In this document: positions 9,842 to 25,612 of the stretch, one piece after another
Numbering within the stretch: the stretch's first letter is position 1
Layout: each line of letters starts with the position of its first letter
Assembly (NCBI GenBank): GCA_017642935.1
Contig: JAEPOK010000003.1
Location: 124,001-188,000, forward strand
DNA from: Hyphomicrobiales bacterium
GTDB lineage: Bacteria > Pseudomonadota > Alphaproteobacteria > Rhizobiales > MH13
Direction of reading: 5' to 3'
DNA: 64,000 nt
The notes under the pieces: generated by a model
Told to the model about the DNA's origin: nothing
What the model saw: only the letters and a program-made list of their open reading frames with translations
Databases searched by the model: none
Program-made: the position numbers and the translations under genes

Positions 9842-10063
9842 ATGACCCGCCTCACACTGATCGCACTGACCGGCGTTTTTCTGATATCCGGTGTGGCCGC
9901 CGCTCTGGTTGGCGGCGCTGAGGCCCGCGCACCCGCGTCGGCCACACCTTCTATCGACGCTCCGACGCTTGCACCGGCTGAGCGCTGCTCACTTCAGCCG
10001 CAGCGGGTGACGCATCCCGACAATGGCGCATCAATCCTGATTCTGCGCACGCATTGCGAGTGA
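9842..10063 (+). CDS. Small exported protein with two cysteines, 73 residues
   Basis: ATG 9842 follows AAAGGA by about nine bases. Residues 1-28 look like a signal peptide (TRLTLIALTGVFLISGVAA, then GGAEA-RAP). The mature part contains Pro/Ala-rich sequence and two cysteines (ERCSLQPQR and the penultimate RTHCE), which could form one disulphide in the periplasm. The frame stops just before the DUF427 gene. It is the second of a tandem pair with the 59-residue protein at 9632. Both begin with MTR and have good SD sites. The function is unknown. Confidence 0.65.
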   Translation: MTRLTLIALTGVFLISGVAAALVGGAEARAPASATPSIDAPTLAPAERCSLQPQRVTHPDNGASILILRTHCE

Positions 10064-10114
10064 CGCTTGGCCAGTGACACTTGCTCAAGTCGCGATGGAC
10101 CCCACATCTGCGGT

Positions 10115-10624
10115 ATGACCCAAGCCCCCTCGCCCGTTCAGGGCACGACCCGACTGCATCCGATCGAAGACGTTGGCCGATTTCCGCGCCCACCGCTGCT
10201 TGAGCCCGCACCCTATCCGATATTGATCACGCTGGGCGGTCAGAACATTGCGTCCACGCGCAACGCTTATCGCGTGCTCGAGACCTTCCACCCGCCGACC
10301 TATTACATCCCAACAGAGGATGTGGCTGAAGACGTGCTGACGCCCAACGCCCAACGGTCAGTGTGTGAATGGAAAGGGCCGGCGCGCTATTTCAACGTCA
10401 AAGGCGGCGACAAAAACCTGGAGGCGAGCGCCTGGAGTTACCCCAACACGGTCGGTGCCTTCGCCGCGATCAAGGATTATCTAGCCTTTTATTGCCACCC
10501 GATGGACCGCTGTCTGGTCGATGGCATCGAGGCGACGCCACAGCCCGGCAACTTTTATGGCGGCTGGGTGACGCCCTGGATCACCGGCCCAATCAAGGGC
10601 GCGCCAGGCACCACGCATTGGTGA
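10115..10624 (+). CDS. DUF427-family protein
   Basis: The 169-residue product carries the DUF427 core: GGQNIASTRNAYRVLE, PPTYYIPTEDV, CEWKGPARYFNV, ASAWSYPNTVGAFAAIKDYLAFY. The fold is a small beta-barrel-like domain found widely in bacteria, and no activity is established. About 35 residues follow the usual end of the domain (CHPMDRCLVDG to GAPGTTHW), rich in Pro, Gly and Trp. ATG 10115 is chosen as the family start; a TTG at 10067 is an alternative, and no strong SD decides it. It follows the small exported protein genes closely and is perhaps co-transcribed. Confidence 0.85.
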   Translation: MTQAPSPVQGTTRLHPIEDVGRFPRPPLLEPAPYPILITLGGQNIASTRNAYRVLETFHPPTYYIPTEDVAEDVLTPNAQRSVCEWKGPARYFNVKGGDKNLEASAWSYPNTVGAFAAIKDYLAFYCHPMDRCLVDGIEATPQPGNFYGGWVTPWITGPIKGAPGTTHW

Positions 10625-10787
10625 GCAAAAAATCGAAAAAAGTTTAGCGATCGCTGATCCAACGTCGAACAGCCTACGTAATTGTACGTGAAAGTGAGAG
10701 CCGCGCAGGTTCCCCCGAGCTGGCGCTGGCACCCTAGAACGCTTTCGACTTTACCCTTGCGTTCCCCGATACGCATTTTGGGTCATT
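10625..10787 (+). ncRNA. Possible small RNA or structured 3' region
   Basis: This 163-base stretch between the DUF427 stop and a strong plus-strand terminator has no credible reading frame. It contains the palindrome ACGTA-N4-TACGT at 10676-10689 and several short hairpins (GAACGC/GCGTTC at about 10738-10764, GCGT/ACGC at about 10759-10774). The terminator may end the DUF427 mRNA with a long 3' untranslated region, or a separate small RNA starting near 10690. I could not match it to SRP RNA, 6S RNA or tmRNA. Confidence 0.3.
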
Positions 10788-10821
10788 GGCCGTCCTCACC
10801 CCCGGGGACGGCCACTTTTTT
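10788..10821 (+). terminator. Strong plus-strand intrinsic terminator
   Basis: Stem GGCCGTCC (10788-10795) pairs with GGACGGCC (10806-10813) and is followed by six T residues (10816-10821). The reverse strand lacks a T-run, so it does not serve hisG, which ends at 10825 on the other strand. Confidence 0.88.
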
Positions 10822-10824
10822 GCT

Positions 10825-11805
10825 TCAAGAGATTTGCAGAGCCTCATAGACCGGCGCAAAGCCTTCGGCCGATCCGTCGAGCACATAAGTCAGTTCGCCG
10901 ATGGTGATGGTCGTTGCGCCCCGGGCGCGCAGCCAGTCGGTGAGCTCCCATAGCCGCTTCTTTTCAACATGCAGGACCAGCGATCCTTGACCTGCAACGG
11001 CGCCAAAGGGCGCAGTGCAGCCGAACCGATCGGATGCCTCTCGAAAGGTTTTGGTCTGCTCGCCGATGGCGGTGCGCACCTCGTAGATCGAGGCCGCGCG
11101 ATCCTGCGCCGCGATGCGCGACAGGATGGACTTCAGCGCCTCTGCCACTCGACCCGACCAGTCCGCCTGCCTTGATCCGACCAGCGTTGCCTCGCTTTTC
11201 AGGATCACGCCATCAGAGAGGATGCGCAAATGGTTGGCGGTCAGCGTCGCACCGGTGGTTGTGATATCGACGATGAGATCGGCGGCGCCGGAGGCTGGCG
11301 CACCTTCAGTCGCGCCGAGGCTCTCGACGATCCGATAGTCGGCCACGCCATGGGCGCGGAAGAAGTTGCGTGTCAGGCGCACATACTTTGTAGCAAGGCG
11401 CATGCGCCGACCGTGGCGGGCGCGAAAACCGGCGGCCACATCGTCAAGATCGTGCATGGTCTGCACATCAATCCAGCTATCGGGCACCGCCACCACGACA
11501 TCGGCAAAACCAAATCCAAGCGGGGCCACTTCCACCGTGATGGTGTCGGGATCGGCAATCTTCTCGTGCACCAAATCCATGCCCGTGACGCCAAGATGCA
11601 CCGTGCCTGCGGCCAGTTCGCCGGCGATCTCAGAGGCGGACAAAAACGCCACCTCAACGCCATCCAATCCCTTGATCAGACCGCGATAGTTCCGCTCACC
11701 GCTTTTCTTGGTGATCGTCAGACCGGCCCGTTCGAAATAGGCCATGGTCGCCTCCTGCAGGCGGCCTTTGGACGGAATGCCAAGAATGAGGGGCTGATCG
11801 CTCAT
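10825..11805 (-). CDS. hisG: ATP phosphoribosyltransferase catalytic subunit HisG
   Basis: HisG joins ATP and PRPP in the first step of histidine synthesis. The 326-residue product has the catalytic core (LGIPSKGRLQEAT, GVTGMDLVHEK, and the PRPP loop region DLIVDITTTGATLTAN). It then continues for about 90 residues with a segment like the regulatory HisG_C domain (LHVEKKRLWELTDWLRARGA). Short HisG forms that work with HisZ are usually near 210-230 residues, so this is a long-type protein in an operon that also encodes HisZ. ATG 11805 overlaps the hisZ stop as ATGA, and AGGGAG lies upstream, which fixes the start. Confidence 0.95.
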   Translation of the reverse strand: MSDQPLILGIPSKGRLQEATMAYFERAGLTITKKSGERNYRGLIKGLDGVEVAFLSASEIAGELAAGTVHLGVTGMDLVHEKIADPDTITVEVAPLGFGFADVVVAVPDSWIDVQTMHDLDDVAAGFRARHGRRMRLATKYVRLTRNFFRAHGVADYRIVESLGATEGAPASGAADLIVDITTTGATLTANHLRILSDGVILKSEATLVGSRQADWSGRVAEALKSILSRIAAQDRAASIYEVRTAIGEQTKTFREASDRFGCTAPFGAVAGQGSLVLHVEKKRLWELTDWLRARGATTITIGELTYVLDGSAEGFAPVYEALQIS

Positions 11806-12902
11806 TGCTCGTCTCCCTTCGGCAGACGATCCAGCCAAAGCGCGGCGCCAACGGCGGGCACGGTTGTCTCAGCACCAAGTCGTTCCATCAGGCCATCAAA
11901 ACGTCCGCCAGATACCGCAGGCGGTGTGGTTCGATCCTCCGTTCCGCGCATTTCGAACGTAAAGCCCGTGTAGTAGTCGAGGCGCCCGCCGGCCCAACCG
12001 CAGAAGGTCATGGTCGAAACCGGCTGGTTGCGTTCTTCGAAGGCGTCAAGCCGCGCAACGAAGCTATCGATCACCGGATCGAGCGCCAAAGACGCAACGC
12101 TGGCCAGCCGCTTCAAAAGACTGGCCGCCTCGCGCGCCGGCACTTCCAAATGGATTAGCGCTTCCAGGCAGGTCATCGCCGCTTCGCTGATCGGCGCAGC
12201 CGTCTGGCGGGCCGCTTTTTCGATAAAGCGTTCGGCGATCTCCGCCGAGGTGCGCCCACCGACCGGTTGGATGCGAGCAAGGTCCATCATCTCTTCGACC
12301 AGTGCGCGGGCCTCCTGCGGATCGCCGCTTGCAAGGGCGGCCATCATTGCCGGTTGTTCCTCGTTAGACGTGGATGTGACGTCGGCGAGCGCGGCCTCGA
12401 CGCGTGGTTTCGACCCCAGCGCGCGGCGAAGGCGGCGAACGGATCGTGGCGCAAATCCGAGGCCCTCAACGAAGGCCGTGAAGATTGCCGAGTCGCCTAA
12501 GGTAATCGACGGATTGGCCAGCCCGCCGGCGGTGGCGAGCGAGGCCGAAAGCGCCATCACTTCGGCATCGGCCGCCAAAGTGTCCTCGCGGCCAATGCTT
12601 TCGATGCCGGCCTGGATGAACTCGCCTGTTTCGCCGGGACGAAACCGGAACGCCGGGGCAAGATAGCCATAATTGGCGGTGCGCTCAGCAGACCCTGTCT
12701 CCAGGTGATGACGGCAGATCGGAATGGTGAGTTCTGGGCGCAGGCACAGCTCGGTGCCGGCCTGATCCTCGGTGGTGAAAAGGCGCGTGCGGATATCCTC
12801 GCCGACCAGATCGAGAAAGACGTCGGCTGGCTGCAAGATCGGCGTTTCCACTGGCATGTAGCCAGAGGTTTCCAACAGTTCGATGATCTGACGGCGCGAC
12901 AT
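11802..12902 (-). CDS. hisZ: ATP phosphoribosyltransferase regulatory subunit HisZ
   Basis: The 366-residue product is a HisRS paralogue without tRNA charging activity. It has class II synthetase-like motifs: ETPILQPADVFLDL, TELCLRPELTIPICRHH, and the late YYTGFTFEMRG in place of the HisRS histidine-A motif. HisZ normally binds short HisG and gives it activity and histidine feedback. ATG 12902 directly abuts the hisS stop (TAA|ATG), and the end overlaps hisG by four bases, so the three genes are translationally coupled. It is the middle gene of hisS-hisZ-hisG. Confidence 0.95.
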   Translation of the reverse strand: MSRRQIIELLETSGYMPVETPILQPADVFLDLVGEDIRTRLFTTEDQAGTELCLRPELTIPICRHHLETGSAERTANYGYLAPAFRFRPGETGEFIQAGIESIGREDTLAADAEVMALSASLATAGGLANPSITLGDSAIFTAFVEGLGFAPRSVRRLRRALGSKPRVEAALADVTSTSNEEQPAMMAALASGDPQEARALVEEMMDLARIQPVGGRTSAEIAERFIEKAARQTAAPISEAAMTCLEALIHLEVPAREAASLLKRLASVASLALDPVIDSFVARLDAFEERNQPVSTMTFCGWAGGRLDYYTGFTFEMRGTEDRTTPPAVSGGRFDGLMERLGAETTVPAVGAALWLDRLPKGDEQ

Positions 12903-14660
12903 TTATTGATCCGCCTCTTGCTCAGCGAGCCGCTTTTTCACTTCCTCGACAAGCCTATCTTCTGGCACTTCATATTGGCCAGGGCGCGCGGCCTTGTACT
13001 CGGCATTGCTTTCAAACGCTGCGGCCTCGCGCTTGCCTTCGATCATGTCCTTGATCTGCACAACGCCCTGCTCCCGCTCGTTGGAACCCTGGATGATGCA
13101 CAGCGGGGAATTGCGGCGGTCGGCATATTGCAGCTGCTTGCCGAACTGTTTTGGGTTGCCATGAAACATTTCGGCGCGAACGCCAGCCTGTCGAAGTTCC
13201 TGTACCATTTTCTGGTAACCAGCGAGCGCGTCGATATCGCGATCCATCACGCAGACGACGACCGGACCCTGCGGGGTGTCGGCGGAAATCTTGCCGAGGT
13301 TTTTGAGCGCTGTCATCAGGCGTGACACGCCGATGGAAAAGCCTGTCGCCGGTACCGGCTCGCCACGGAACCGAGAGACCAGACCATCATAGCGGCCACC
13401 GCCTCCGACAGAGCCGAACACGACCTCCTCACCCTTTTCGTTGGTCACGGGGAAGAGAAGCTCAGCCTCATAGACCATGCCCGTGTAGTATTCGAGACCG
13501 CGCACCGTGGACTCGGCGATCTGAACGCGATCATCGTACCCGCAAGCGGCCAGCATGGCCGCCAGCTTGCGCAACTCGTCCAAGCCTTCCTGGCCGGTCT
13601 TGGAGTCACCGACCAACTCGGCAAGCTTGTCGACCCGACCTTCATTGGTCAGTTGCAGCTCGTCGGTTTCGGGGTTGTAGGTGAACGGTTTCCGGTCAGG
13701 GTCCTTGATGCCTAGTGCTTCCAAGAGCTCGATCACTTGGTCCGGCGGCAATGAGACCGATGCGGACAGACGCTTCACATCGGGATCATCTTCTTCAAGC
13801 TGCTTGTAGAGGACGACCGGCAGATACTCTTTCAGCCCGTCGATGATTTCCTCAGAACGTTCACGGTTGATACCGACACGACCGATGAAGCTGTCGGCCA
13901 GTTCGTCGAGGCGATACTCTTTCACCAAGCCTGTCAGACGTTCGCGCGCTTCGCTGACCAACCCGGCGCCTTTGGTGAAATCACCGCTCTCATCTTTGCG
14001 GCCCTGGCCAAGCAATTGCTCAACACCGTCGACGCCAATACGATCCAATTTGTCGATGGCACGCAGCACAGAAAGCTTTTGTCCGTCTTCTTCGACGCCG
14101 ACAGCTTCCATCACACCATCGAGCACTTTGCGGTTGTTCACGCGGATGACGTATTGGCCGCGCGGGATACCCAGGGCCTCCATCGTGTCGGCCATCATCA
14201 TGCACATTTCAGCGTCCGCCTGGACGCCTGGCGCGCCGACCGTGTCGGCATCAAACTGCGCGAACTGGCGGAAACGGCCCGGCCCCGGTTTCTCATTGCG
14301 AAAAACATAGCCCGCACGGTAGCTGCGATAGGGCTTGGGCAGAGCGTCGTAGTTTTCGGCGACGTAACGCGCCAATGGAGCGGTCAAGTCGTATCGCAGC
14401 GACATCCACTGCTCGTCATCATCCTGCACCGAGAACACGCCGTCGTTCGGGCGATCGGTGTCGGGCAGAAACTTGCCAAGCGTCTCGGTGTACTCAAACA
14501 TCGGCGTCTCGACGGGATCAAAACCGTAGCGCTCATAGACCTCGCGGATCTTGGCTGTCATCTCGCCAAACGCGCGAATGTCCCCAGCATCCTGGTCGGC
14601 AAAACCGCGCGGCAGGCGTGCCTTTACCTTCTGAGGCTTCTTCTTTTTCTTCTCGGACAT
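12903..14660 (-). CDS. hisS: Histidyl-tRNA synthetase
   Basis: The 585-residue class IIa synthetase charges tRNA-His. Motif 2 is [17 protein letters not shown], and the histidine-binding signature is [11 protein letters not shown]. The anticodon-binding domain follows ([17 protein letters not shown]). The protein is about 80-150 residues longer than the bacterial average because of an insertion between the motif 2 region and the HisA motif (about residues 200-350). The start at 14660 begins [13 protein letters not shown], a Lys-rich head; the open frame further upstream lacks homology. A tRNA-His gene is present at 52196-52272. Motif 2 differs from the common ERPQxGRxRQFHQ form. It is the first gene of the hisS-hisZ-hisG operon. 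Confidence 0.95.
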
Positions 14661-14792
14661 GAATGGGGCTTTACGCGGGTTTTGAGAGACGCCGCGAGGG
14701 ATAGACGCGTGTGATGTGCGATGCAAGGTGGCACCGCCACCTCGGTAAAGGTGGCACGGTTCCCAGTGTAGGGCTGGCACCGCCTATTGACG

Positions 14793-14829
14793 TGTCATCC
14801 CGGGCGAGCCTGCGAGACCCGGGATCTGC
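14793..14829. repeat. Intergenic palindrome (ATCCCGGG...CCCGGGAT type)
   Basis: Arms ATCCCGGG and CCCGGGAT flank a 12-base centre and start with the phrase GTCATCCCGGG. Such GTCATCCCGG palindromes are scattered through many alphaproteobacterial genomes as short mobile or structural repeats. A second relative lies at 15845-15935. The rest of the gap (14661-14885) also holds a short hairpin AGGTGG-N5-CCACCT near 14727. No gene is evident there. Confidence 0.6.
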
Positions 14830-14885
14830 AACCGCACCGAAACGACTGATCTCGGGCCGCCGTCGGCGTCCAGGATGGCAATCGG

Positions 14886-15530
14886 TTAAGAAGGCACCGT
14901 GAACGCTGCGCGTTCGGCTTCCTGTTCGCCATAACGGAAGCAAGCTTCCTCATGGTCATTAACCAGGCCCATGGCCTGCATGAACGCGTAACAGGTGGTC
15001 GGACCGAAAAAGCTCCAGCCGCGTTTTTTCAAGTCCTTGGACAGCTGCTTGGACGTCGGCGTCTGGGCGAGTGCCATCAGTTCCTCACGCGTGTTGCGCT
15101 TGGGACGTTCCTCAGCCGGAGGGATGTAGCGCCAGAAGAAGGCCGCCAGGGACCCTGCTTCCTCCACCAGTTCCAAGGCGCGCGCGGCATTGTTGATGGT
15201 GGAGCGGATTTTGCCCTGGTGGCGCACAATCCCAGCATCCCCGAGCAGGCGCTCGACATCAGACTCGCCATAGCGGGCGACCTTGGCAAAGTCGAACCCA
15301 TCGAAGGCGACGCGAAAGTTCTCGCGCTTTTTCAGAATCGTCAGCCAGGAAAGACCGGACTGAAACCCTTCAAGACAGATCTTTTCGAAAAGCCGGTGAT
15401 CGTCGGTGACGTGCTTGCCCCACTCCTCATCGTGATAGGACACATAAAGCGGGTCGCCGGACACCCAAAAGCAGCGGTGCGGGGCGTCTGCCTTGTCGGT
15501 CTGGTCAGTCTGATTGGTATGGTCGGTCAT
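14886..15530 (-). CDS. tag: DNA-3-methyladenine glycosylase I
   Basis: The 214-residue product matches Tag: CFWVSGDPLYVSYHDEEWG near the N-terminus (Zn-binding Cys, substrate-pocket Glu/Trp), FEKICLEGFQSGLSWLTIL, NNAARALELVEE, and SKQLSKDLKKRGWSFFGPT with TTCYAFMQAMG near the end. It removes 3-methyladenine from alkylated DNA in base excision repair. The start is ATG 15530; the longer open frame upstream overlaps the DUF2798 gene in another frame and is not homologous. There is no clear Shine-Dalgarno, which may mean coupling with the upstream gene, 68 bases away. Confidence 0.93.
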   Translation of the reverse strand: MTDHTNQTDQTDKADAPHRCFWVSGDPLYVSYHDEEWGKHVTDDHRLFEKICLEGFQSGLSWLTILKKRENFRVAFDGFDFAKVARYGESDVERLLGDAGIVRHQGKIRSTINNAARALELVEEAGSLAAFFWRYIPPAEERPKRNTREELMALAQTPTSKQLSKDLKKRGWSFFGPTTCYAFMQAMGLVNDHEEACFRYGEQEAERAAFTVPS

Positions 15531-15598
15531 GCCAGCGTTGTTGCGCAAATCGCCCGGCCGCGCCACCCGTTTGACGCCCGACTCCTGACCCGATCCTG

Positions 15599-15826
15599 TC
15601 AGTCGGCTTTGACCAGTTTGGCCACGAGCCTGCGGGTGATCGGCGCGACCACCAGGACGGCTGGGAAGGCGACGATCCAAGCATTGATCCAAGCCGCCAT
15701 CCAAAGCGCGACGAAATCCGGCGGCAGGCCGAGCGCACGCCAGGTCGCGATACCCGAAACGAGCAACGACATAAGCCCGGAAAGAATGAAGCCGAAAAGG
15801 ATGGGGGCGAATCGTGGAGGGATCAT
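15599..15826 (-). CDS. DUF2798-family small membrane protein
   Basis: The 75-residue product has two hydrophobic helices (PILFGFILSGLMSLLVSGIA and AAWINAWIVAFPAVLVVAP) followed by a basic tail ITRRLVAKLVKAD, the pattern of DUF2798 inner-membrane proteins. GAAGG lies just before ATG 15826. It reads toward tag on the same strand. A longer frame overlaps it out of phase but lacks any family match. The function of the family is unknown. Confidence 0.75.
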   Translation of the reverse strand: MIPPRFAPILFGFILSGLMSLLVSGIATWRALGLPPDFVALWMAAWINAWIVAFPAVLVVAPITRRLVAKLVKAD

Positions 15827-15844
15827 GGGCCTTCAATGAATGTT

Positions 15845-15935
15845 GTCATACCGGAAGCCTTAGGCTGTCCGGCATCTGCTACCAGCAATGCTATTGCCGA
15901 TCCCGGATAGGCTGCAAGCAGCCTTCGGGGATGAC
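15845..15935. repeat. Intergenic palindromic repeat (GTCATACCGG...GGGGATGAC)
   Basis: The 91-bp element begins GTCATACCGG and ends CGGGGATGAC, with internal inverted pieces, such as GGCTGC/GCAGCC near its right end. It resembles the element at 14793. It occupies most of the gap between the DUF2798 and pirin genes and could fold into a long hairpin. It is probably a dispersed repeat. Confidence 0.55.
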
Positions 15936-15942
15936 ACAAGGT

Positions 15943-16860
15943 CTAAGCCGTCGGCTGCTCTTTGATGAAGTTGCCGGTTTGCAAATCCTGGATCGCCTGC
16001 ATCAGTTCCTCGCGCGTGTTCATGACGATTGGTCCGTGCCAGGCCACCGGCTCTTTCAGCGGTTGGCCGGAGACCAGCAAGAAGCGCATACCCTCCGGGC
16101 CAGAGCGGGCCACGACCTCATTGCCGGTGTCGAAATGTACCAACGTGCGGTCGCCGGATAGATCGCGAATGTTGAGCTCCTCGCCGGCAAACTCCTTTTC
16201 GACCTTCACGCCCGTCGGGCTCGATGCGTCGCGGAACGTGCCTGACCCAGCAAAGATGTAGGCAAAAGTGCGCGCATAGGTTTCGACGGGAAAGCTTTTC
16301 TTGGTGTTCGGCGGCATGGAGATGTCAAGAAACAGGGGATCGGCGGCGATACCATCGACTGGGCCTTTCTTGCCCCAAAAGTCGCCGATGACGATCTTCA
16401 CGCACGTGCCATCATCGTCGATGATTTCTTCAACGTCGGAACCGGCAATGTCCTGATAGCGCGGGGTGGTCATCTTCAAGCTGGAGGGTAGGTTCGCCCA
16501 AAGCTGAAACCCATGCATCTGACCCTTGGCGTTCCCGCGCGGCATCTCCTGATGCATGATGCCGGACCCCGCCGTCATCCACTGCACAGACCCGGCGCCG
16601 AGCGTGCCTTTGTTGCCAAGCGAGTCGCCGTGTTCCACTTCGCCTTCCAGCACATAGGTGATGGTTTCAATGCCGCGGTGCGGGTGCCAAGGGAAGCCCT
16701 TGGCATAGTGCTCGGGCACGTCATTGCGGAAATCATCGAACAACAGGAACGGATCGGAGAGGTCCGTGTCGCCGAAGCCGAAAGCGCGGTGCAAGTGCAC
16801 GCCGGCGCCTTCCATGGTCGGCGTGGCCTTGGATTCCTGAAGAACCGGGCGAAAGCTCAT
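15943..16860 (-). CDS. Pirin family protein
   Basis: The 305-residue protein is a bicupin. The N-terminal cupin has the metal-binding HPHRGIETITYVLEGEVEH motif, followed by GSVQWMTAGSGIMHQEMP. The C-terminal half carries FAYIFAGSGTF and ends with a typical pirin region (VAWHGPIVMNTREELMQAI). Bacterial pirins include quercetinases and regulators of pyruvate dehydrogenase; the role here is not known. GAGGAG eight bases before ATG 16860 fixes the start, although the open frame continues upstream. It has no obvious operon partner. Confidence 0.93.
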   Translation of the reverse strand: MSFRPVLQESKATPTMEGAGVHLHRAFGFGDTDLSDPFLLFDDFRNDVPEHYAKGFPWHPHRGIETITYVLEGEVEHGDSLGNKGTLGAGSVQWMTAGSGIMHQEMPRGNAKGQMHGFQLWANLPSSLKMTTPRYQDIAGSDVEEIIDDDGTCVKIVIGDFWGKKGPVDGIAADPLFLDISMPPNTKKSFPVETYARTFAYIFAGSGTFRDASSPTGVKVEKEFAGEELNIRDLSGDRTLVHFDTGNEVVARSGPEGMRFLLVSGQPLKEPVAWHGPIVMNTREELMQAIQDLQTGNFIKEQPTA

Positions 16861-17013
16861 GGGTTCACTCCTCAAAGCAAGGGGCACCGCGAACGACTTC
16901 CCGCGGTGCGTTGAGGAGCAAGATAGTGCGCTGGCGGCAATTGCCATAGGCAGGTGCCGCACGACGCATTGTTTCATGGCGGTGAACGATAGACGGTCGC
17001 TGCGCGCGCCGAC

Positions 17014-17766
17014 CTAGTCGAACAAAGCGTCAATGTCGTCCTGGCTGGCGACATTGGTGTCCTCGGCCATGGCCGGGCCATTGAGAAGTGCGGCGTCGCC
17101 CTTCGGACCAACGTCCAGCGTTTCGACTTCCTCAAAGCTTTCCATACCGCCCCAGATTTCCATCATGGAATCGATGCGCTCTTCGATGAAGCGCATGGTT
17201 TTGACCACTTTGGTAATCCGCTGACCGGTGATGTCCTGGAAGTTACAAGCCTCGAAGATCGTCATCACCGCCTCGGCGGCGTCATTGGCCATGCCCTGAT
17301 CGTCGCCCGACAGTTTTGCTGACAGGTTGCCAACACGGTCTTCAACGGTTTCAGCGGCTGTCAGGATCGCTTCAGTCGCCTGTTCGGTCCCCTGAACAAC
17401 GGCGTCCAATTCATCGGTCACCTTGCCCAGTTCTTTGCCCTGGAAGCCGGATTGATGGAGCGTGGCGATCTCGGTCTTCGTTTGCTGAATGGCGGCTCGG
17501 ATAGCCGACATTTCGGCTTCCAACCGCTTCACTTCGGCCATTTCGCGATGGAAGGAATCGATCTTCGCCTGATCGAGTTCCTCGCGCGGCTCGATCATCT
17601 CTTTGAGTTCGGCAATGGCATTAAGGATCGCGACCGAGTCGCCGCCAGATAGGCTGGCAGCCGGTGCATCCGGCGCTGATACAGGAGGTCGACCGGAAAC
17701 GCGGCCAACAGTTTGTCCATTCATGGACGCTTCAATTCGAAATGCTTTGCGCTTTGCTTGCGCCAT
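17014..17766 (-). CDS. cheZ: CheZ-family chemotaxis phosphatase with FliM-like tail
   Basis: The 250-residue product has a long coiled-coil (about residues 50-130) and the CheZ active-site motif FQDITGQ at 176-182, with Asp178 and Gln182 placed as the catalytic D143/Q147 pair of E. coli CheZ. The last ten residues, SQDDIDALFD, closely resemble the N-terminal CheY-binding peptide of FliM (SQDEIDALL). This suggests that the protein recruits phospho-CheY through its tail and dephosphorylates it. GAGGG precedes ATG 17766. There are no che or fli genes nearby, so its partners must lie elsewhere. It diverges from the DUF2927 gene. Confidence 0.85.
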   Translation of the reverse strand: MAQAKRKAFRIEASMNGQTVGRVSGRPPVSAPDAPAASLSGGDSVAILNAIAELKEMIEPREELDQAKIDSFHREMAEVKRLEAEMSAIRAAIQQTKTEIATLHQSGFQGKELGKVTDELDAVVQGTEQATEAILTAAETVEDRVGNLSAKLSGDDQGMANDAAEAVMTIFEACNFQDITGQRITKVVKTMRFIEERIDSMMEIWGGMESFEEVETLDVGPKGDAALLNGPAMAEDTNVASQDDIDALFD

Positions 17767-17919
17767 GTGCCCAACCCTCTACGCGGCCTCACCAGGACCG
17801 CAACCTAGGCGAGCGATAGTTAAAAAGATGTTGGCGCCGATGGGCATTTCTACCGATAGGACTGACTTGCCGGAACGTCAGGCACAGGTCATGAAGGATC
17901 ATCGCGATTCGAACCGCAG

Positions 17920-18693
17920 ATGACGCGCTTGATGTTCACCGCACACACTCCCCGGTCTCAACCATCGGCGAATGCCGATCTGGCGCGGGTCATTGGTGTC
18001 CTGGCGATCGCGCTGCTGGTGTGGATCGCGAGCCCAGCAGTCGCACAGAGCCGTTTTTCCGATGCCGCGCTTGCCGATGGGTTTTATCGCACCGTCTTCG
18101 GCTTGGAATATGAAGCCGGCAGTCGCGGCGCGAGCGTCGTGAAAAAATTTGTCGGACCGGTTCGGCTTTATGTCGATCATCGATCGCGGATCGACAGACG
18201 TCGCGCGGTGGAGCGTTTCGTGGGGTCGGTGAACCGTGCCGTGCGTGGCCTCGACTTGCGGGTTGTCGATAGCCCGCTTGAGGCCAATTTCACCGTCTAT
18301 GTGGTCGATCGGGCGCAATATGCTCAGGTGATCCAGGACGATGTCTACAACTCCTCGCGCGCCGAAGTGCGTGGCCGCTGCATGGTGCGTGTGCTGACGG
18401 GTCAAGGCGGGATCAGCCAGGCACAGGCCGTGATTGTGTCGGATGAAGGCGATTTCCTGTTCAACCGCTGCATGGTTGAAGAGGTCTTGCAGGGTCTTGG
18501 GCCGTTGAACGACGATCCGACTTTGACGGCCAGCGTCTTCAACGATCAATCCCAGCACACGCGGTTCATGCTGCATGATCGTTATGTGCTGAACATGCTC
18601 TACCATCCCCGCATTCAGCCAGGCATGCGCCGGGATGATGTCGATCGGGTGCTGCGCATGGTGCTTGGCGACGTGCGAGCCTGGGTGCGCTAG
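17920..18693 (+). CDS. DUF2927-family exported protein
   Basis: The 257-residue precursor has a hydrophobic N-terminal segment (VIGVLAIALLVWIASPAVA) ending at an AVA-QSR cleavage site. The mature part carries DUF2927 features: a pattern EEVLQGLGPLNDDP, then SVFND and LHDRYVLNMLYHPRIQPGM. Family members are weakly metalloprotease-like, and no activity is proven. ATG 17920 is used; an ATG at 17932 is also possible, and neither has a strong SD. A ten-codon frame (17891-17923) overlaps its start. The gene is monocistronic, divergent from cheZ. Confidence 0.82.
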   Translation: MTRLMFTAHTPRSQPSANADLARVIGVLAIALLVWIASPAVAQSRFSDAALADGFYRTVFGLEYEAGSRGASVVKKFVGPVRLYVDHRSRIDRRRAVERFVGSVNRAVRGLDLRVVDSPLEANFTVYVVDRAQYAQVIQDDVYNSSRAEVRGRCMVRVLTGQGGISQAQAVIVSDEGDFLFNRCMVEEVLQGLGPLNDDPTLTASVFNDQSQHTRFMLHDRYVLNMLYHPRIQPGMRRDDVDRVLRMVLGDVRAWVR

Positions 18694-18777
18694 GCAGGTT
18701 TACAGGACGCACCACCCGAGGCTTTGGCTCTCTCGACCGCGTGCAGCAGCCGAGAGAGTTCGATCAGGGTTTGGGGA

Positions 18778-19266
18778 TCAGACCAGCCCGGGCAACGCAA
18801 ACAGGATCAACGCGGCTGACACCACGCAGGCGGACCCCCGCACTGTGTTCCAAAAGCTCCAGCGCGGCACATAGGTCTGGGTCCAGAACGCGCTGGTGGC
18901 CCCGTCGGCCACATCCATCTTGGCCAGGCGTTCGTTGAGCGGGACATTGAAGCCCACGGTCACGCCGAAACAGCCGATGAAATAGATGAACCCAGCGGCA
19001 GCGAGGATTGTTCCCGTGGTTCCGGGAACCGTTGTCAGCGCATAAACTGCGATCACCAGTGAGAGCGGCGCAAGGCCGAGAAACAGGGCCATGAAGACCC
19101 AACGAAAAACCTCGCGATTGATGACCTGCATGGCCTCAACGCCGCCGGTTCCAGAGGTCCGGGCGAGCGAACGCATGATGAAGTCCGAAAAGGCCAGGAA
19201 CACGCCGCCGACCAGCGCGTAGGCGAGCGCGGCAAACTGGATGAGTATGAGAAAGAGAAGAGACAC
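18778..19266 (-). CDS. DUF1772 (anthrone-oxygenase-like) membrane protein
   Basis: The 162-residue product begins at GTG 19266, with AAAGGA eight bases upstream, giving VSLLFLILIQFAALAYAL. It has four hydrophobic helices. The motif NVPLNERLA in the loop before the last helix is the hallmark of DUF1772, also called the anthrone oxygenase family. The reaction is unknown in bacteria. An upstream extension of the frame would give a soluble, Pro/Ser-rich head and is rejected. It is the last gene of an AraC, NmrA, DUF1772 group on the same strand, 73 bases after the NmrA stop. Confidence 0.83.
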   Translation of the reverse strand: MSLLFLILIQFAALAYALVGGVFLAFSDFIMRSLARTSGTGGVEAMQVINREVFRWVFMALFLGLAPLSLVIAVYALTTVPGTTGTILAAAGFIYFIGCFGVTVGFNVPLNERLAKMDVADGATSAFWTQTYVPRWSFWNTVRGSACVVSAALILFALPGLV

Positions 19267-19339
19267 GGTCTTTGTCCTTTGGTTCGATGGGCGGGAGGCT
19301 GGCGCCTCCCGCCATGTTTGGTCTGTGTTAAGTTTGCGC

Positions 19340-20176
19340 CTAGGCGGCTTGGTGCCAAGCGCCTGCCTGGGCGGCACGCTTGGTGAAGTCGGAGAAGCTG
19401 CGTGGTGGACGGCCGAGCGCCCGCTGCACGCCATCGGTCAGGTGGGCGTTGCGTCCATCCAAGGTCTCACGCGCGATACCTGTGAAGACGTCGGCGACAA
19501 AATCGCCGCCTGCGTCGGCCACATTGCGGTGAAAGTCCTCAAAGGAAATCGGAAGGTGCTGAACCGGCTTTCCGATGGCGTAGGAAAGCTCCGCTGCCAT
19601 GTCGGCGAAAGACAGCATTTCCGGTCCTGTCACCTCGTAGAGTTCGCCGGTGTGGCCCTTTTCGGTGAGGGCGGCCTCCACGACATCAGCGATGTCGTCA
19701 ATGTCGATGATCGGCTCGCGGATATCACCGCCAGGCATCGGCAGCATGCCGGCCAAAATCGGGTCGCGCAGATAACCCTCGCTGAAGTTTTGCGCGAACC
19801 AGGCAGCGCGGACGATGGTGAACGGAATACCGGAAGCACGAACGACTTCTTCACCGAGCTTGGCGTGGTGTTCGCCGCGGCCCGAAAGTAGGACCAGATG
19901 TTGAAGGCCAGCCTCTTTGGCGGTCTTGCAGAGTGCGTCCAGTTTCTCGACCGCACCGGGGAAGGCAAGATCGGGAAAGTAAGTGACGTAGGCGGATTTC
20001 ACCCCATTGAGGGCCGGACCCCAAGTTTCTGGGGCTTCCCAGTCGAAGGGGATGGCAGCGTTGCGCGATCCGCGGCGAACCGGCAGGCCGAGCGCTTCGA
20101 GTTTGCTGGCAACGCGGCGACCGGTTTTGCCGGTGGCGCCGATAACGAGGATGTCTTGATTGGGTTGGGTCTGCAT
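19340..20176 (-). CDS. NmrA-like NAD(P)-binding reductase
   Basis: The 278-residue protein starts with a Rossmann motif (ILVIGATGKTGRRVASKL), continues with an SDR-type YVTYFPDLAFPG and LVLLSGRGEHH, and has a C-terminal substrate-binding part. The lack of the SDR Tyr-Lys pair in its usual position fits the atypical NmrA-like/NAD(P)H azoreductase group. It likely reduces or binds a small quinone-like or redox substrate, unidentified. AAGGAG eight bases before ATG 20176 supports the start. It lies between the AraC regulator gene (115 bases upstream) and the DUF1772 gene. Confidence 0.88.
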   Translation of the reverse strand: MQTQPNQDILVIGATGKTGRRVASKLEALGLPVRRGSRNAAIPFDWEAPETWGPALNGVKSAYVTYFPDLAFPGAVEKLDALCKTAKEAGLQHLVLLSGRGEHHAKLGEEVVRASGIPFTIVRAAWFAQNFSEGYLRDPILAGMLPMPGGDIREPIIDIDDIADVVEAALTEKGHTGELYEVTGPEMLSFADMAAELSYAIGKPVQHLPISFEDFHRNVADAGGDFVADVFTGIARETLDGRNAHLTDGVQRALGRPPRSFSDFTKRAAQAGAWHQAA

Positions 20177-20290
20177 GGGTTTGCTCCTTGGCTTGATGAG
20201 AGAGCCATGGAGTAGCCAGGGGCGGGCGATCCGGTCTTGACACTGTCGGTCACGCTTTTGACCGATGCTGCCACCGGTCAGGCGACGCGG

Positions 20291-21298
20291 TTAGAGCTCG
20301 CTATGCTGCCGGCGGAAATTGGCTGGCGTTTCGCCAGACCAACGCTTGAACGCGCGGTTGAAGGAACTCTGCTCGGAAAAGCCGGTCAGGAACGCGATTT
20401 CAGACAAGGCATAGCGCTCATCGCGCAACAGCCCTTCGGCGAGGTCGCGGCGAGTATCCTCGGTGAGCGCCTGGAAGGTAAGGCCGTGGTCGGCAAGCCG
20501 GCGATGCAGCGAACGCACGCTGATCCCGAGACGGCGGGCGACCTCCTCCATTTTCGGCAAGCCTTCGCTCAGCGCCCGGGCGATCACCTGTTTGGTCTGT
20601 TCCTCAAGAGACTGCTCACGCGTGACGGCCTGCAGCTCTTGATCCAGATGCTGGGTCAGAAACTGTGTGATGCCTTTGTCGCCAAGCTTGTTGGGACTTT
20701 CCATTGCCTCGCGGGAGATCAAAAGGGCGTCGCGATCAGAACCGAAGCTCACCGGCGCCAAAAAGTAACGCTCATGCTCCGAAACATATTGTGGCGCAGG
20801 ATGTTTGAGATGCACTTCCAGCGGTGCAAACGCGCCTGTCGGTGAAACCTCACGCGCAATGGCGGTGGCGCTGGCCAGCGTTGCTTCATTGGAGAGGCGT
20901 AAACCCAGCCGCCGTGGCCCGGCGCGATGGAGAATGAACCAGGTGGCATCACCGGCCGGTTCAAGCTCATATTCAACCACGCTCGTCCAAAGGCGCGCAT
21001 AACGGGCAATACGGGCATAGCCGCTGGAAAGCGTAAGCGCGGCTTTGAATGCCAGGCCAAGCGCGCCGTAATCATCGCATCGCATGGAGGCGCCCGTACG
21101 CAGCGGCAAGGATGTCGCGTCGATCTTGCCAGCGATCCGTTCCAGCAGATCGTAATAGGCGTCAGCCGCGACCATTGCTTTGGGGTCGACGGAGCTATCC
21201 GGCGAGAGACCGACCGACCGCAACAGATCGGCCGCGTCCACCTCTGGTCCGGCGGAAGCCACCATCTTGCGAACGAAGAGCGATGTGACGAAGCCCAT
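20291..21298 (-). CDS. AraC-family transcriptional regulator
   Basis: The 335-residue protein has an N-terminal Arabinose_bd-like sensor domain (GFVTSLFVRKMVASAG through about residue 200) and a C-terminal double HTH of the AraC type (KMEEVARRLGISVRSLHRRL and YALSEIAFLTGFSEQSSFNR, ending GETPANFRRQ). This is the architecture of OruR/GadX-type regulators. It reads toward the NmrA and DUF1772 genes on the same strand and is the obvious candidate to control them. No operator is clear. The ATG at 21298 gives the standard family length. Confidence 0.9.
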   Translation of the reverse strand: MGFVTSLFVRKMVASAGPEVDAADLLRSVGLSPDSSVDPKAMVAADAYYDLLERIAGKIDATSLPLRTGASMRCDDYGALGLAFKAALTLSSGYARIARYARLWTSVVEYELEPAGDATWFILHRAGPRRLGLRLSNEATLASATAIAREVSPTGAFAPLEVHLKHPAPQYVSEHERYFLAPVSFGSDRDALLISREAMESPNKLGDKGITQFLTQHLDQELQAVTREQSLEEQTKQVIARALSEGLPKMEEVARRLGISVRSLHRRLADHGLTFQALTEDTRRDLAEGLLRDERYALSEIAFLTGFSEQSSFNRAFKRWSGETPANFRRQHSEL

Positions 21299-21579
21299 AA
21301 GGCTTTATACTTGGCGCGCAATCGAGGTCCAGACGCGGCTTGGTGCCATCAATTCGCACGTTCACACCTGCTTAACCCTCTCGCCTAACCGGCGCTTTAC
21401 CACGCCCGTTGGCGCGCGATTTACCATCAACAAAGCAATACCGGCTTTGCGCGCCTCTGATCGGGTTTTTCGGAAAAGGATTCACCATTCCCTTGGCGCT
21501 TTCTGGCCTTCTTAAAGCCAGTGTGCGGCGCGTTAGGCGCGGCATTCGTCTTCTTTGTGTTGCGTAAGGACGGTGCGAA

Positions 21580-22380
21580 ATGGATTACGGGATTTGGACA
21601 AGCAAGGCGCTGCTCGGCCTTGGCGCCTTGACCATGTTGGTCGGCGTGTCGACGGGCGACGCGCAAGCGCAATCGGTCAGCTATCACGCGGGCTCCCCTT
21701 ATGTGATGCTGCATGAAGAGCGCTCCTCGCCTTGGCTTCTTCAGCTTCAGCCTGGCTATGCGCGGCAGCAACACCATGTGCGCCGGCAGCAAGCGCGGCA
21801 CGCCTATCAACGTTCGCTGAGCGGCCGCTTGGTCACGCAGCCAACTCATCGCCAAGCCGTTCAGGCGCATCGCCCGGCGGTGCAGGAAGCCAGCGTCGCG
21901 CCAAGCCACCAACTCAATCCGATCTTTCTGCCGCAGGTGGTGAGCTACGACACGCACCATGCGGTTGGCACGATTATCGTCGATCCGCACAACCGCTTCC
22001 TTTATCTGGTCGAAGAGAACGGTCAGGCCCGCCGCTATGGCGTCGGCGTCGGTCGTGCCGGGTTTGGCTGGTCGGGTACAGCTACTATCCAGCGCCGCGC
22101 CGAATGGCCTCGTTGGACACCGCCCGCCTCGATGATCGAGCGTCAGCCGGAGCTGGAAGAATGGCGCCACGGCATGCCCGGCGGCCTGGACAACCCGCTG
22201 GGTGCGCGCGCGCTCTATCTCTATGAGGGTGGCCGCGATACGCTCTATCGCATCCACGGCACCAACCAGCCTTGGACGATTGGCCAGGCGATGTCGTCAG
22301 GTTGCATCCGCATGCGCAATGAGGATGTGACCGATCTCTATGAGCGGGTGCGCATCGGCGCCCGCGTTGTGGTTCTCTAG
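21580..22380 (+). CDS. L,D-transpeptidase (YkuD/ErfK family)
   Basis: The 266-residue precursor has a signal-peptide-like N-terminus (LGLGALTMLVGVSTGDAQA) and a Gln/His/Arg-rich linker (about residues 50-100). The C-terminal YkuD domain carries the catalytic signature HGTNQPWTIG at 226-235 and SSGCIRMRN, with the nucleophile Cys242. Such enzymes cross-link peptidoglycan with 3-3 bonds or anchor outer-membrane proteins to the wall in the periplasm. AAGGA nine bases before ATG 21580 fits. It stands alone, with its own terminator at 22411. Confidence 0.93.
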   Translation: MDYGIWTSKALLGLGALTMLVGVSTGDAQAQSVSYHAGSPYVMLHEERSSPWLLQLQPGYARQQHHVRRQQARHAYQRSLSGRLVTQPTHRQAVQAHRPAVQEASVAPSHQLNPIFLPQVVSYDTHHAVGTIIVDPHNRFLYLVEENGQARRYGVGVGRAGFGWSGTATIQRRAEWPRWTPPASMIERQPELEEWRHGMPGGLDNPLGARALYLYEGGRDTLYRIHGTNQPWTIGQAMSSGCIRMRNEDVTDLYERVRIGARVVVL

Positions 22381-22410
22381 GACAGAGACAAACGTTCCAG
22401 AAGGATCAAG

Positions 22411-22445
22411 AAGGCGGCTGGAGGCATTCCTCAGTCGCCTTTTTT
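22411..22445 (+). terminator. Terminator of the L,D-transpeptidase gene
   Basis: A hairpin with arms AGGCGGCTGGAGG and CTCAGTCGCCT (one mismatch and a bulge) encloses CATTC and runs into six T residues. It begins 31 bases after the stop and ends against the stop of the converging PNPOx gene. Confidence 0.85.
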
Positions 22446-22947
22446 ACATCAGGTCTGATGCTTTCAGGTTGAAGGCCTTGCCGAAGCCGCCGTTCAAAAA
22501 GGCGCGTTCGGGCGTGATGCGCCAGAAATGGAAATCGGCGAAGTCCACATAGAGCTTGGCCTTGGGATTGCGCGCCAGATAGGCCGTTCGCGCCGCCTGC
22601 CGGTCCGATGCATCGACCAGGGCTGCTCGCCCAATCAACGTCAGACGCGGGTGAGTCAGCGGATCGCCGCCGGGTTTATTGATCTGTCCCGGCTCGCCGA
22701 TCAGCAGCGAGCAGCGCCCATCGCTGGATAGCGCTGTGAAATGGGCTGACAGCTCCGACATCAAGAGCAGCGGCGCGCCATCGGCATCCAGCCCAAAGCC
22801 GGTTCGCGTCACCAATGGATGGCCCGTTTCGGGCTGTAGGTGGGCGAGCGCCGCGAAGGGCGCCTTGTCGAGCAGGGCGCGGGCCAAAGCGCGCGCATCA
22901 TCATCGACCGGCCTTATCGGTGAGCCGGCTTTTTCGGGCGTGTTCAT
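22444..22947 (-). CDS. HugZ-like pyridoxamine 5'-phosphate oxidase family protein
   Basis: The 167-residue product has the split-barrel FMN-binding fold typical of PNPOx-like proteins: APFAALAHLQPETGHPLVTR, GAPLLLMSELSAH, RCSLLIGEP, RLTLIGRA and a C-terminal FADFHFWRITPERA. Related small proteins act in haem degradation or flavin binding. The function here is not established. ATG 22947 lies eight bases after the stop of the upstream amidotransferase gene and has no strong SD, so translational coupling is likely. It is the last of three genes, with DUF6356 and class II amidotransferase. Confidence 0.82.
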   Translation of the reverse strand: MNTPEKAGSPIRPVDDDARALARALLDKAPFAALAHLQPETGHPLVTRTGFGLDADGAPLLLMSELSAHFTALSSDGRCSLLIGEPGQINKPGGDPLTHPRLTLIGRAALVDASDRQAARTAYLARNPKAKLYVDFADFHFWRITPERAFLNGGFGKAFNLKASDLM

Positions 22948-22955
22948 GCCGCGAT

Positions 22956-23756
22956 TTATGCGACAGCGGCGCGAGCCAATCCAGTGCCAATCACCAGTGG
23001 CTGACGGTCGCACATGTCGGCACTGAGCGTGATGAGCGTGTCAGCCTCGACGCTTTGCCAGCCATTCGTCAGGCTATCCAGCGGCTCAGAGGCCAGCGTC
23101 CAGCCGTCTGTCTCGTTGCGCCGCAGGTAAAGCGTCGGGCAACGATCATCGCTGGCGTGGCGGAAGCCGTAGAGCGTCTTGCCATCGCTGAAAACGCAGG
23201 TGAGCCGCACTGCCTCTTTACCCGCGCCATAACAGCTTCGCTCGGCCAGCAGGTGAAGCAGCTTTTCAACGGCGGAAGCCGGATCATCCATCAAACCGAA
23301 TGTCAGAAGCAGGAGGAAAATGAGCTCAGAGTCCGTCGTTCCACGGCGCAGTGCGTAGAGCTCATCGGGCAGCATCGCCTCCAAGCCGCGGCGGATCGCC
23401 TCAATGTCCGGCACCTGGCCATTGTGCATGAACGACCAATTTTTGTACGCGAAGGGGTGGCAGTTGACCCGCGAGGTTTCTCCCGCCGTCGAGGCGCGCA
23501 CATGAGCGAGAAACAACCGCGAACGCACCATGCGGCAGAGACTTGGCAGATTACCGTCTGACCAGGCCGGCAGGACATCGCGGTAGAGCCCCGGCTCGGC
23601 ATCCCGGTCGTACCAGGCAAACCCAAAGCCGTCACCGTTCACCGCCAGTTTGGCCTCGCTCGCATGTTGGCTTTGTTCCAAGAGCGAATGGTCCGGCTCA
23701 ACGATGATCTGACCGAGTGCAACTGCGGGACCGAGATAGGCGGCAAGACGGCACAT
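22956..23756 (-). CDS. Class II glutamine amidotransferase (EgtC/YafJ-like)
   Basis: The 266-residue protein begins MCRLAAYLGP, which places the catalytic Cys2 at the mature N-terminus, as in Ntn-type glutamine amidotransferases. Other class II landmarks are GDGFGFAWYD, FLAHVRASTAGETSRVNCHPF, WSFMHNGQV and RGTTDSELIF. Family members hydrolyse gamma-glutamyl amides; EgtC does so in ergothioneine synthesis. No other egt gene is near, so the substrate is undefined. It starts six bases after the DUF6356 stop and is followed eight bases later by the PNPOx gene, so all three are probably one operon. Confidence 0.92.
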   Translation of the reverse strand: MCRLAAYLGPAVALGQIIVEPDHSLLEQSQHASEAKLAVNGDGFGFAWYDRDAEPGLYRDVLPAWSDGNLPSLCRMVRSRLFLAHVRASTAGETSRVNCHPFAYKNWSFMHNGQVPDIEAIRRGLEAMLPDELYALRRGTTDSELIFLLLLTFGLMDDPASAVEKLLHLLAERSCYGAGKEAVRLTCVFSDGKTLYGFRHASDDRCPTLYLRRNETDGWTLASEPLDSLTNGWQSVEADTLITLSADMCDRQPLVIGTGLARAAVA

Positions 23757-23762
23757 ATCGGT

Positions 23763-23999
23763 CTAGTGGCGCGCTTCCATACGGGCGTGCAGTTTTTTGA
23801 TCAGGCGACTTGCCGTCGTTTCAAAAAGCGGCGGGATGATCGCGTGGATCAAGGCGGCCAGACCGGCTCCAAAAAGCGTCAGCGCAAAGCCTGCGGCAAA
23901 CCGCATATGCTGGAAATAGGTCTCATCGACACTGGCTGGGTGGTCGATGAAGCCGCGCCAGAAACTGCTGCGGGGTTGGGTATCGATATGATCGGTCAT
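23763..23999 (-). CDS. DUF6356-family small membrane protein
   Basis: The 78-residue product carries the family phrase FWRGFIDHPASVDETYFQHM, then one membrane helix (FAAGFALTLFGAGLAALIHA) and a basic tail TASRLIKKLHARME. GGGAG about seven bases before ATG 23999 supports the start. It is the first gene of the three-gene group with the class II amidotransferase and PNPOx genes, divergent from the Lrp-type regulator at 24104. Function unknown; the conserved neighbours suggest an envelope or thiol-related role. Confidence 0.82.
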   Translation of the reverse strand: MTDHIDTQPRSSFWRGFIDHPASVDETYFQHMRFAAGFALTLFGAGLAALIHAIIPPLFETTASRLIKKLHARMEARH

Positions 24000-24103
24000 G
24001 CTGCGCTCCCAAGAATGACGTTCGTAGAAGCTCGCATGAAATGGGCGAGAGAATGTCCCAGATTTCGTTTCTTTTTCCAAACTATTGGGATACCATCCCT
24101 CAC

Positions 24104-24565
24104 ATGAGTATCTCACTCGACGAAATGGATCGTCGTATTCTTCGCCACCTACAACGCGATGCCTCCATGAGCATGGATTCGGTGGCCGATGCGGTGAACC
24201 TGTCGCGCAATGCCTGCTGGCGGCGAATCAAGAACCTGGAAGATGCCGGCGTTTTGACGCGGCGCGTCGCACTGGTCGATCCGCAGACCATAGGCCTCGA
24301 TCTTCTCACCTTTGTATTGGTGCGCACCAACCGCCACGATGCTGACTGGCTGAAAGCCTTTCACAAAGCGGTTCGGGAACTGCCAGAGATTGTTGGCGCT
24401 CACCGCTTGTCCGGCGATTTGGATTACATCCTGCGGGTGCGCGTGGCGAGCGTGCGCGACTATGACGCGTTCTATCAGCGCCTTATTGAGCGCGTGCCGA
24501 TTTCCGATGTTTCGGCAAGTTTTGTGATGGAAGACATCAAGGACACCACGGAGCTTCCGCTCTAA
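24104..24565 (+). CDS. Lrp/AsnC-family transcriptional regulator
   Basis: The 153-residue protein has the N-terminal HTH (LDEMDRRILRHLQRD, VADAVNLSRNACWRRIKNLE) and a C-terminal RAM/AsnC ligand-binding domain (TFVLVRTNRHDADWLKAF, VGAHRLSGDLDYILRVRVAS). These regulators respond to amino acids. ATG 24104 is preferred over an upstream in-frame ATG at 24041. Its gene diverges from the DUF6356 operon across 104 bp, where TCCCA (24056) and TTGGGA (24085) form a possible operator. It may control that operon. Confidence 0.92.
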   Translation: MSISLDEMDRRILRHLQRDASMSMDSVADAVNLSRNACWRRIKNLEDAGVLTRRVALVDPQTIGLDLLTFVLVRTNRHDADWLKAFHKAVRELPEIVGAHRLSGDLDYILRVRVASVRDYDAFYQRLIERVPISDVSASFVMEDIKDTTELPL

Positions 24566-24605
24566 CACCGTTGTCATGGGCGGCCCGCACCCTCATATCT
24601 TGTCT

Positions 24606-24968
24606 ATGCCTTCAACGAGCACGCTGATCAGCAGTTTTGTTCTCTTATCCGTCGCCGCCATGGCGCTCGTGCTGTGGGCGGCGCAGGGCGGCGCCAATGA
24701 AGACGGACTTCTGATTGCGGTCTTTCCGCCGACGGCCGACGAGCGCACGATTATGCAAGCCGTGGTGGCGGCGGAGGGAACCTTTGTGCGGGCGAGCCTG
24801 CCGGAAACCATTGTCATTGCTCACAGCAGACAGCCCGACTTTGCCGATCGCTTGAAGGCAGAGGGCGCTTGGCTCACCTATTCCGATGCGCCCTTCGGCA
24901 ATGGTTTGGCCGGATGTCTGGCGTTGGCCACGGTGCCGTTTGAAAGGGCGGTGGTTCCGGCCCGCTAG
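24606..24968 (+). CDS. Hypothetical membrane-anchored protein, 120 residues
   Basis: The protein has an N-terminal hydrophobic helix (LISSFVLLSVAAMALVLWAA, residues about 7-26) and a 90-residue soluble part (GLLIAVFPPTADERTIMQAV, later PFGNGLAGCLAL). The helix could be an uncleaved signal or anchor. An alternative start at 24576 adds ten residues; neither start has a clear SD. It is 40 bases downstream of the Lrp gene on the same strand and might be co-transcribed. I do not recognise a family. Confidence 0.62.
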   Translation: MPSTSTLISSFVLLSVAAMALVLWAAQGGANEDGLLIAVFPPTADERTIMQAVVAAEGTFVRASLPETIVIAHSRQPDFADRLKAEGAWLTYSDAPFGNGLAGCLALATVPFERAVVPAR

Positions 24969-25030
24969 CTTACTGGCGATGGAACCGGTTTGGCGCCTTC
25001 ATCCAAAGATGGTGCGACAGGCGGACGTGC

Positions 25031-25612
25031 TCAAGCGAGCTCCTTGACCATTAACAGCGCCTCGGTGGACTCCAAGCCGAAGTCAGCCAAACGAAACGGC
25101 CGCCGCGCCTTTTCCAGGTAACCTGCCCGCTCATAAGCGTGGATGGCACCAACGTTGGACGCAACGACAACCAGCGCAAGACCTGGACAGCCACATTCAT
25201 GCGCCTGCGACTCGGCCTCGTCCAACAGGGCTGTCCCTAGGCCCTGCCCGCGGCTATCGGGACTCAACGCCACGAAGTTGATGTACCAATAACCCGGCAC
25301 AAGGTTTTCCAGTTCCTTGAGCGCCAACAAGGCGTCGGGAACGTCGAGCTCTGCCGGCTCGGGCGTGGTCGGCAAGGGGTATCCAATCATGCCCCCAAGT
25401 GGCAGGCCGCCTTGCACACACACCCACCCATGGCGGTAGCTGAACTCGCCTTCCTCCGCGCGCACCAGAGCGAGACCGAACTCCGAACCGTCCATTCCGT
25501 CCGGCGCCATTTCGCGCAAAAGCGCGGGCACAAAACCGTCGCTCGCCATGTCGATGACACGCAGGATCAGCGCGGCGTCCTCTGGTGTGGCCTTACGAAT
25601 GACCGGTTGCAC
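25031..25612 (-). CDS. GNAT-family N-acetyltransferase
   Basis: The 193-residue product carries the acetyl-CoA-binding motif A (YINFVALSPDSRGQGLGTAL) and a C-terminal GAIHAYERAGYLEKARR (motif B). The start is GTG 25612, with AAGGAG about eight bases upstream. The acceptor is unknown. It lies between the hypothetical gene and the glycolate oxidase operon without clear ties to either. Confidence 0.9.
   Translation of the reverse strand: MQPVIRKATPEDAALILRVIDMASDGFVPALLREMAPDGMDGSEFGLALVRAEEGEFSYRHGWVCVQGGLPLGGMIGYPLPTTPEPAELDVPDALLALKELENLVPGYWYINFVALSPDSRGQGLGTALLDEAESQAHECGCPGLALVVVASNVGAIHAYERAGYLEKARRPFRLADFGLESTEALLMVKELA

Follow-up and report, generated by a model that had tools for sequence, protein, structure and literature searches.

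In Escherichia coli CheZ, the acid of the catalytic DxxxQ is D143. Its glutamine is Q147, and a mechanism that uses the glutamine together with an acid has been described (PMC3035606). CheZ and FliM share a common face of CheY (PMC3774744, citing Guhaniyogi 2008 and listing Zhu 1997), and the CheY-P binding region and the active site of CheZ are described as conserved between E. coli and Azorhizobium caulinodans (PMC7750401). Enteric CheZ carries a D(D/E)WF motif for polar localization that is reported missing from the Azorhizobium protein (PMC7750401), so this motif marks the enteric branch and not the CheZ family. Alphaproteobacterial CheZ is also described as having no CheA-binding sites (PMC7750401). 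Because the common face and the conserved binding region are both in print, the mechanism put forward in the original prediction, a phosphatase tail and the motor as rivals for a single surface of CheY, is already known for CheZ; it is plausible from the CheZ family, but it is not new.

FliY of Bacillus subtilis is a CheY-P phosphatase of the CheC/FliN type, and its fold is unrelated to that of CheZ. Like the protein reported here (Z1) with its predicted docking tail, FliY has a CheY-binding motif, in this case an N-terminal one (PMC8809382). A FliM-like peptide on a phosphatase was therefore already known. The CheY-binding peptide of FliM and the Z1 tail have the QxxIDxL pattern in common, but the FliM peptide lies near the N-terminus of a motor protein, whereas the Z1 peptide lies at the C-terminus of a phosphatase. 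When the Ile-Asp pair of Caulobacter FliM was replaced, extra density attributed to CleD was gone (PMC7534056). CheT of Sinorhizobium meliloti is an alphaproteobacterial CheY phosphatase with a DXXXQ motif and a predicted structure said to be highly similar to that of E. coli CheZ (PMC12654446). Unlike Z1, the Agrobacterium homologue of CheT is located in the che cluster, and no significant sequence homology of it to known chemotaxis proteins is reported (PMC12654446); Z1 and CheT are set against each other here by description.

Z1 is encoded at 17014..17766 on the minus strand of the window (the whole 64,000-nucleotide stretch of DNA that was analyzed). The gene specifies 250 amino acids, with an ATG start and the stop codon included in the interval; frame 1 of the plus strand has internal stops there. 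Z1 matches the Pfam CheZ profile (PF04344) with an E-value of 6.4e-12 and 46.2 bits, above the curated cut-off of 30.7, and membership of the CheZ family, proposed earlier from the active-site motif, is thus borne out. The best-matching stretch (residues 160-249) takes in nearly all of the tail. Scores against the NCBIfam CheZ equivalog models are far below their cut-offs (NF008368, 39.5 bits vs. 257; NF041271, 18.2 bits vs. 350). Among solved structures, phmmer matched Z1 to E. coli CheZ (1kmi, chain Z) with a whole-sequence E-value of 0.0021; the FQD[IL]TGQ active site, the LLNGP linker, and the C-terminal docking peptide of the two proteins align directly. Z1 has 35 extra residues before the aligned region (query 167 vs. 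chain 132), and phmmer aligned nothing of Z1 on the N-terminal side of it. Inspection of the Z1 sequence by eye showed no D(D/E)WF motif, the motif of enteric CheZ described in PMC7750401. Like Z1, A. caulinodans CheZ has ACNFQ beside DxxxQ and an N-terminal region longer than that of E. coli CheZ, and its C-terminal CheY-P binding region, likened to the Z1 tail by description, is called conserved (PMC7750401). Since the tail of E. coli CheZ is homologous and the common CheY face of CheZ and FliM is already in print, Z1 is an ordinary alphaproteobacterial CheZ that keeps a known docking tail. We are highly confident in the reading of Z1 as a CheZ phosphatase of the alphaproteobacterial type whose tail would dock CheY-P, with FliM as competitor. 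A FliM fragment was ruled out as the identity of Z1; the FliM profile PF02154 gave no match to Z1 up to an E-value of 1, and the FliM of the genome lies elsewhere. No chemotaxis gene was recognized by eye around Z1 among frames of at least 100 residues listed for positions 10000-26000.

Several CheZ proteins occur together in this genome and in many of its relatives. Three proteins are above the Pfam cut-off, and two more matches are below it. Besides Z1, they are Z2 (221 aa, ending DQDAIDALFG; L002:1318-1983, G000 contig C3, plus strand) and Z3 (625 aa; L003:550-2427, G000 contig C1, minus strand), whereas the passages cited for A. caulinodans speak of one CheZ (PMC7750401). In the order sample, CheZ matches were found in 130 of 199 genomes (three in 68 genomes, four in six, two in 15, and one in 41, with fragments possible among them). 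Z1 might dock another CheY-like receiver, for example a non-flagellar one, while a different CheZ paralogue serves motor CheY. The three paralogues are in keeping with such a division of labor, as are the 74 of 130 CheZ-positive genomes with at least three matches (fragments included) and the example of Caulobacter, which has 12 CheY homologues and in which Cle proteins bind the FliM N-terminal motif (PMC7534056). The genome has one FliM match and one CheA-domain match, which indicates that a chemotaxis system exists and argues against a separate receiver for Z1; we consider this alternative unlikely.

The last ten residues of Z1, SQDDIDALFD (residues 241-250; 17017..17046, minus strand), form a putative CheY-docking peptide, assigned by alignment with the end of E. 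coli CheZ and by conservation. The ORF translation has this tail, and FQDITGQ at residues 176-182, exactly as given in the original prediction. The resemblance to the FliM docking peptide was also correctly recognized, as FliM from the same genome has RVLSQDEIDNLLGF. The contrast drawn with E. coli CheZ, said to dock through another C-terminal helix, was wrong: that protein has the homologous VASQDQVDDLLD at its end, with which phmmer aligned the Z1 tail VASQDDIDALFD gap-free. The LLNGP linker that precedes the tail is common to both proteins in the same alignment, and the Z1 tail is therefore the C-terminal CheY-binding helix of CheZ. The earlier view, of a tail that came to resemble FliM by convergence and has no kinship with the E. 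coli CheZ helix, can point to the isoleucine-aspartate in the Z1 tail. Many FliM peptides of the order share this pair; the corresponding pair in E. coli CheZ is valine-aspartate. The gap-free alignment, the shared linker, and a Pfam CheZ match that extends through the tail to residue 249 all count against convergence and make it very improbable.

Conservation of the tail was assessed in an orthologue set of closest relatives only, consisting of 33 loci with 32 distinct frames (the Z1 gene, L015-L017, and L019-L047). A similarity search had matches in 130 of 199 genomes, and its 30 best-scoring loci were retrieved; the active-site pattern served to select the frames. QDDIDALF plus one residue ends 31 of the 32 distinct frames; the sole exception, L046, ends in SNQGDIDALFD. 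Tail conservation among close homologues had been set in advance as a check on the prediction, which withstands it. Counted from the end without alignment, each position from -9 to -2 has a single letter, apart from two at -8. Positions -17, -16, and -14 have 8 to 12 letters, and positions -15, -13, and -12 have three or four. Chance resemblance is ruled out by this near-invariance in close relatives, and the Z1 tail probably docks CheY-P at the face used by FliM.

The active-site motif FQDITGQ (17221..17241, minus strand) aligns with FQDLTGQ of E. coli CheZ. Its DxxxQ pair is D178 and Q182, within ACNFQDITGQ, and the FQDxTGQ frame is present in all 29 of the loci L019-L047 fetched by similarity. 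The LLNGP linker motif (residues 227-231; 17074..17088, minus strand), which is also in E. coli CheZ, has the form L[LV][NH]GP in 32 of 32 distinct orthologue frames. An AlphaFold2 model built from four sequences, of low confidence (mean pLDDT 49.2), has helices at residues 66-105, 111-150, and 156-213. Together these give a predicted long-helix core (residues 66-213; 17128..17571, minus strand) that by analogy would be the CheZ helical bundle, a dimeric four-helix fold in this family. The model also has a separate C-terminal helix at residues 242-249, which at this low confidence carries little weight. Polar localization of Azorhizobium CheZ needs the active site and the motif beside it (PMC7750401), as might be expected if Z1 were a catalytically dead scaffold or localization factor that only binds CheY, but with the DxxxQ pair and its surround intact in Z1 and the fetched relatives this idea is scarcely credible.

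By analogy with the CheZ family, the helical core of Z1 would carry the catalytic pair D178 and Q182, and a linker of nearly 30 residues with LLNGP would connect it to the C-terminal helix SQDDIDALFD. This helix would dock on the alpha4-beta5-alpha5 face of phosphorylated CheY and so put the core at the CheY phosphorylation site. There, Q182 would orient the attacking water and D178 would pair with the conserved lysine, and the signal would end. Since a similar peptide is found near the N-terminus of FliM in this cell, Z1 and FliM should be unable to occupy a single CheY molecule together, which is the situation described for the enteric protein.

The pattern Q[DE]E[IV]DxLLGF occurs in 28 of 31 FliM loci (the genome's own and the 30 best-scoring). 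Four FliM loci (L108, L118, L127, and L129) have acidic stretches such as DDLAAAWGAALEEQG in the N-terminal part of the frame, and in L108, L127, and L129 these stretches are repeated.

While Z1 itself is of modest value, its docking peptide can be used to search genomes. Written as a degenerate DNA pattern, the peptide had six matches genome-wide, and the reversed control had none. The six are the three CheZ proteins, FliM, L050, and a 172-residue protein (P0002) in L051. The L050 match was rejected as spurious, as it sits in a 53-residue frame. A wider peptide pattern had 17 matches vs. four for the reversed control; four of the 17 are Z1, Z2, Z3, and P0002, and the other 13, located inside longer or short frames, were dropped. 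One of these, in L199, stops four residues short of the C-terminus of a 95-residue frame.

Z3 has its peptide, EQDDVDALFGG, internally, after the core, and an acidic extension follows. Eighteen places with long frames were chosen from the order-sample matches and combined with L003 to give a Z3-type set of 19 frames. By regular expression, 17 of the 19 have at least one peptide after the active site. Three or four peptides are present in L056, L065, and L066, all from one genus; the average for shuffled stretches is at most 0.009. With such repeats, some long CheZ paralogues would hold several CheY-P molecules simultaneously. Inspected by eye, many Z3 frames (L003 and its relatives L056-L073) share a similar short motif at their end, such as LSPGEKQSLFS.

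P0002 is encoded outside the window (L051:1494-2012, G000 contig C3 at about 45,127-45,642, minus strand), and its 172 residues end in AQDAVDELFS. Relatives (L074-L103, L134-L137, L139-L162, and L200-L207) have an invariant LATDYLNH near the N-terminus and, for the most part, tails such as AQDAVDELFS and NQDEIDALFD. P0002 had no match in Pfam or NCBIfam. Among 25 family members compared with Pfam, five had one stray match each (E-values of 0.06-0.08). Comparison of the family with PDB gave no convincing match, the best being a lymphocyte protein at an E-value of 0.025, and a profile alignment to four CheZ sequences reached 13.9% probability over 20 columns. The family was not recognized in the open-licence literature on multiple CheZ proteins and new CheY-binding proteins; it is nameless here and may be published.

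The order sample has relatives of P0002 in 54 of its 101 genomes, the class sample in 25 of 114, and the phylum sample in 23 of 249 (22 within the class and one marginal partial match with an E-value of 3.2e-4). Eleven plasmid records also match, all from Azospirillum, and one copy (A. ramasamyi) is annotated as a hypothetical protein.

The docking-like tail is a frequent feature of this family. Of 28 recognized frames from the 30 best-scoring order-sample loci, 25 had a stricter tail pattern within their final 16 residues, compared with 2 of 942 other C-termini (mechanical frames of at least 100 residues). Both of these are shortened frames of the P0002 family (L097 and L102), so 0 of 940 remain. 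A wider tail set comprised 66 loci: 30 from the order sample, four from Azospirillum, 24 from the class sample (excluding the locus of the present genome), and eight new ones from the phylum sample. With a slightly wider pattern, 53 of 62 distinct recognized frames matched in the last 45 residues, against 0.26% of shuffled tails. Upstream of these 45 residues, no P0002-type frame had a complete match; the first of two copies in L143 spans the cut and escaped the script. Nine frames missed the tail pattern (L087, L103, L152, which has a stop inside, L162, and L202-L206), and two of the 66 loci had no recognized frame (L161, ending DQGAIDSLFD, and L099, whose end QDTVNALFDD nearly fits the pattern). 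The glutamine-based tail is absent from all five fetched loci of one genus (L202-L206), and genomes of that group have FliM and CheA matches.

Co-occurrence with chemotaxis genes was examined in the 101 order-sample genomes, taken to be G000-G100. Of the 54 genomes with the P0002 type, 52 also have CheZ (one-sided Fisher p 2e-11), 52 have CheA (p 2e-7), and 49 have FliM (p 1.6e-7), all values being uncorrected for relatedness. The link with CheZ is weak within FliM-positive genomes (p 0.02) and has p 4e-4 within CheA-positive genomes, again uncorrected for relatedness. Neighbors of P0002-type genes had no consistent chemotaxis linkage (16 of 20 stretches in which a crude script found the gene; first 60 residues viewed by eye). 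One neighbor, in L165, looks like a chemoreceptor by eye.

Judged by its tail, the P0002 family is a candidate partner of CheY, which could act as a phosphatase, a sink, or an effector in competition with FliM and the three CheZ proteins for CheY-P. We give even weight to both sides of the broader proposal that the peptide marks a wider, partly unknown alphaproteobacterial CheY-P network, in which the P0002 family would be a new CheY partner and some long CheZ proteins would bind several CheY-P. Against this proposal stand the missing tails of L202-L206, L087, L103, and L162, the stop inside L152, and the weak link with CheZ within FliM-positive genomes. If the P0002 family binds CheY-P, a well-studied pathway has an unrecognized component, and the CheY-P consumers of these bacteria outnumber those in the E. 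coli scheme. Paired docking-like peptides occur toward the C-terminus in two P0002-type loci; their spacing is about 40 residues in L143, and they are close together in L147.
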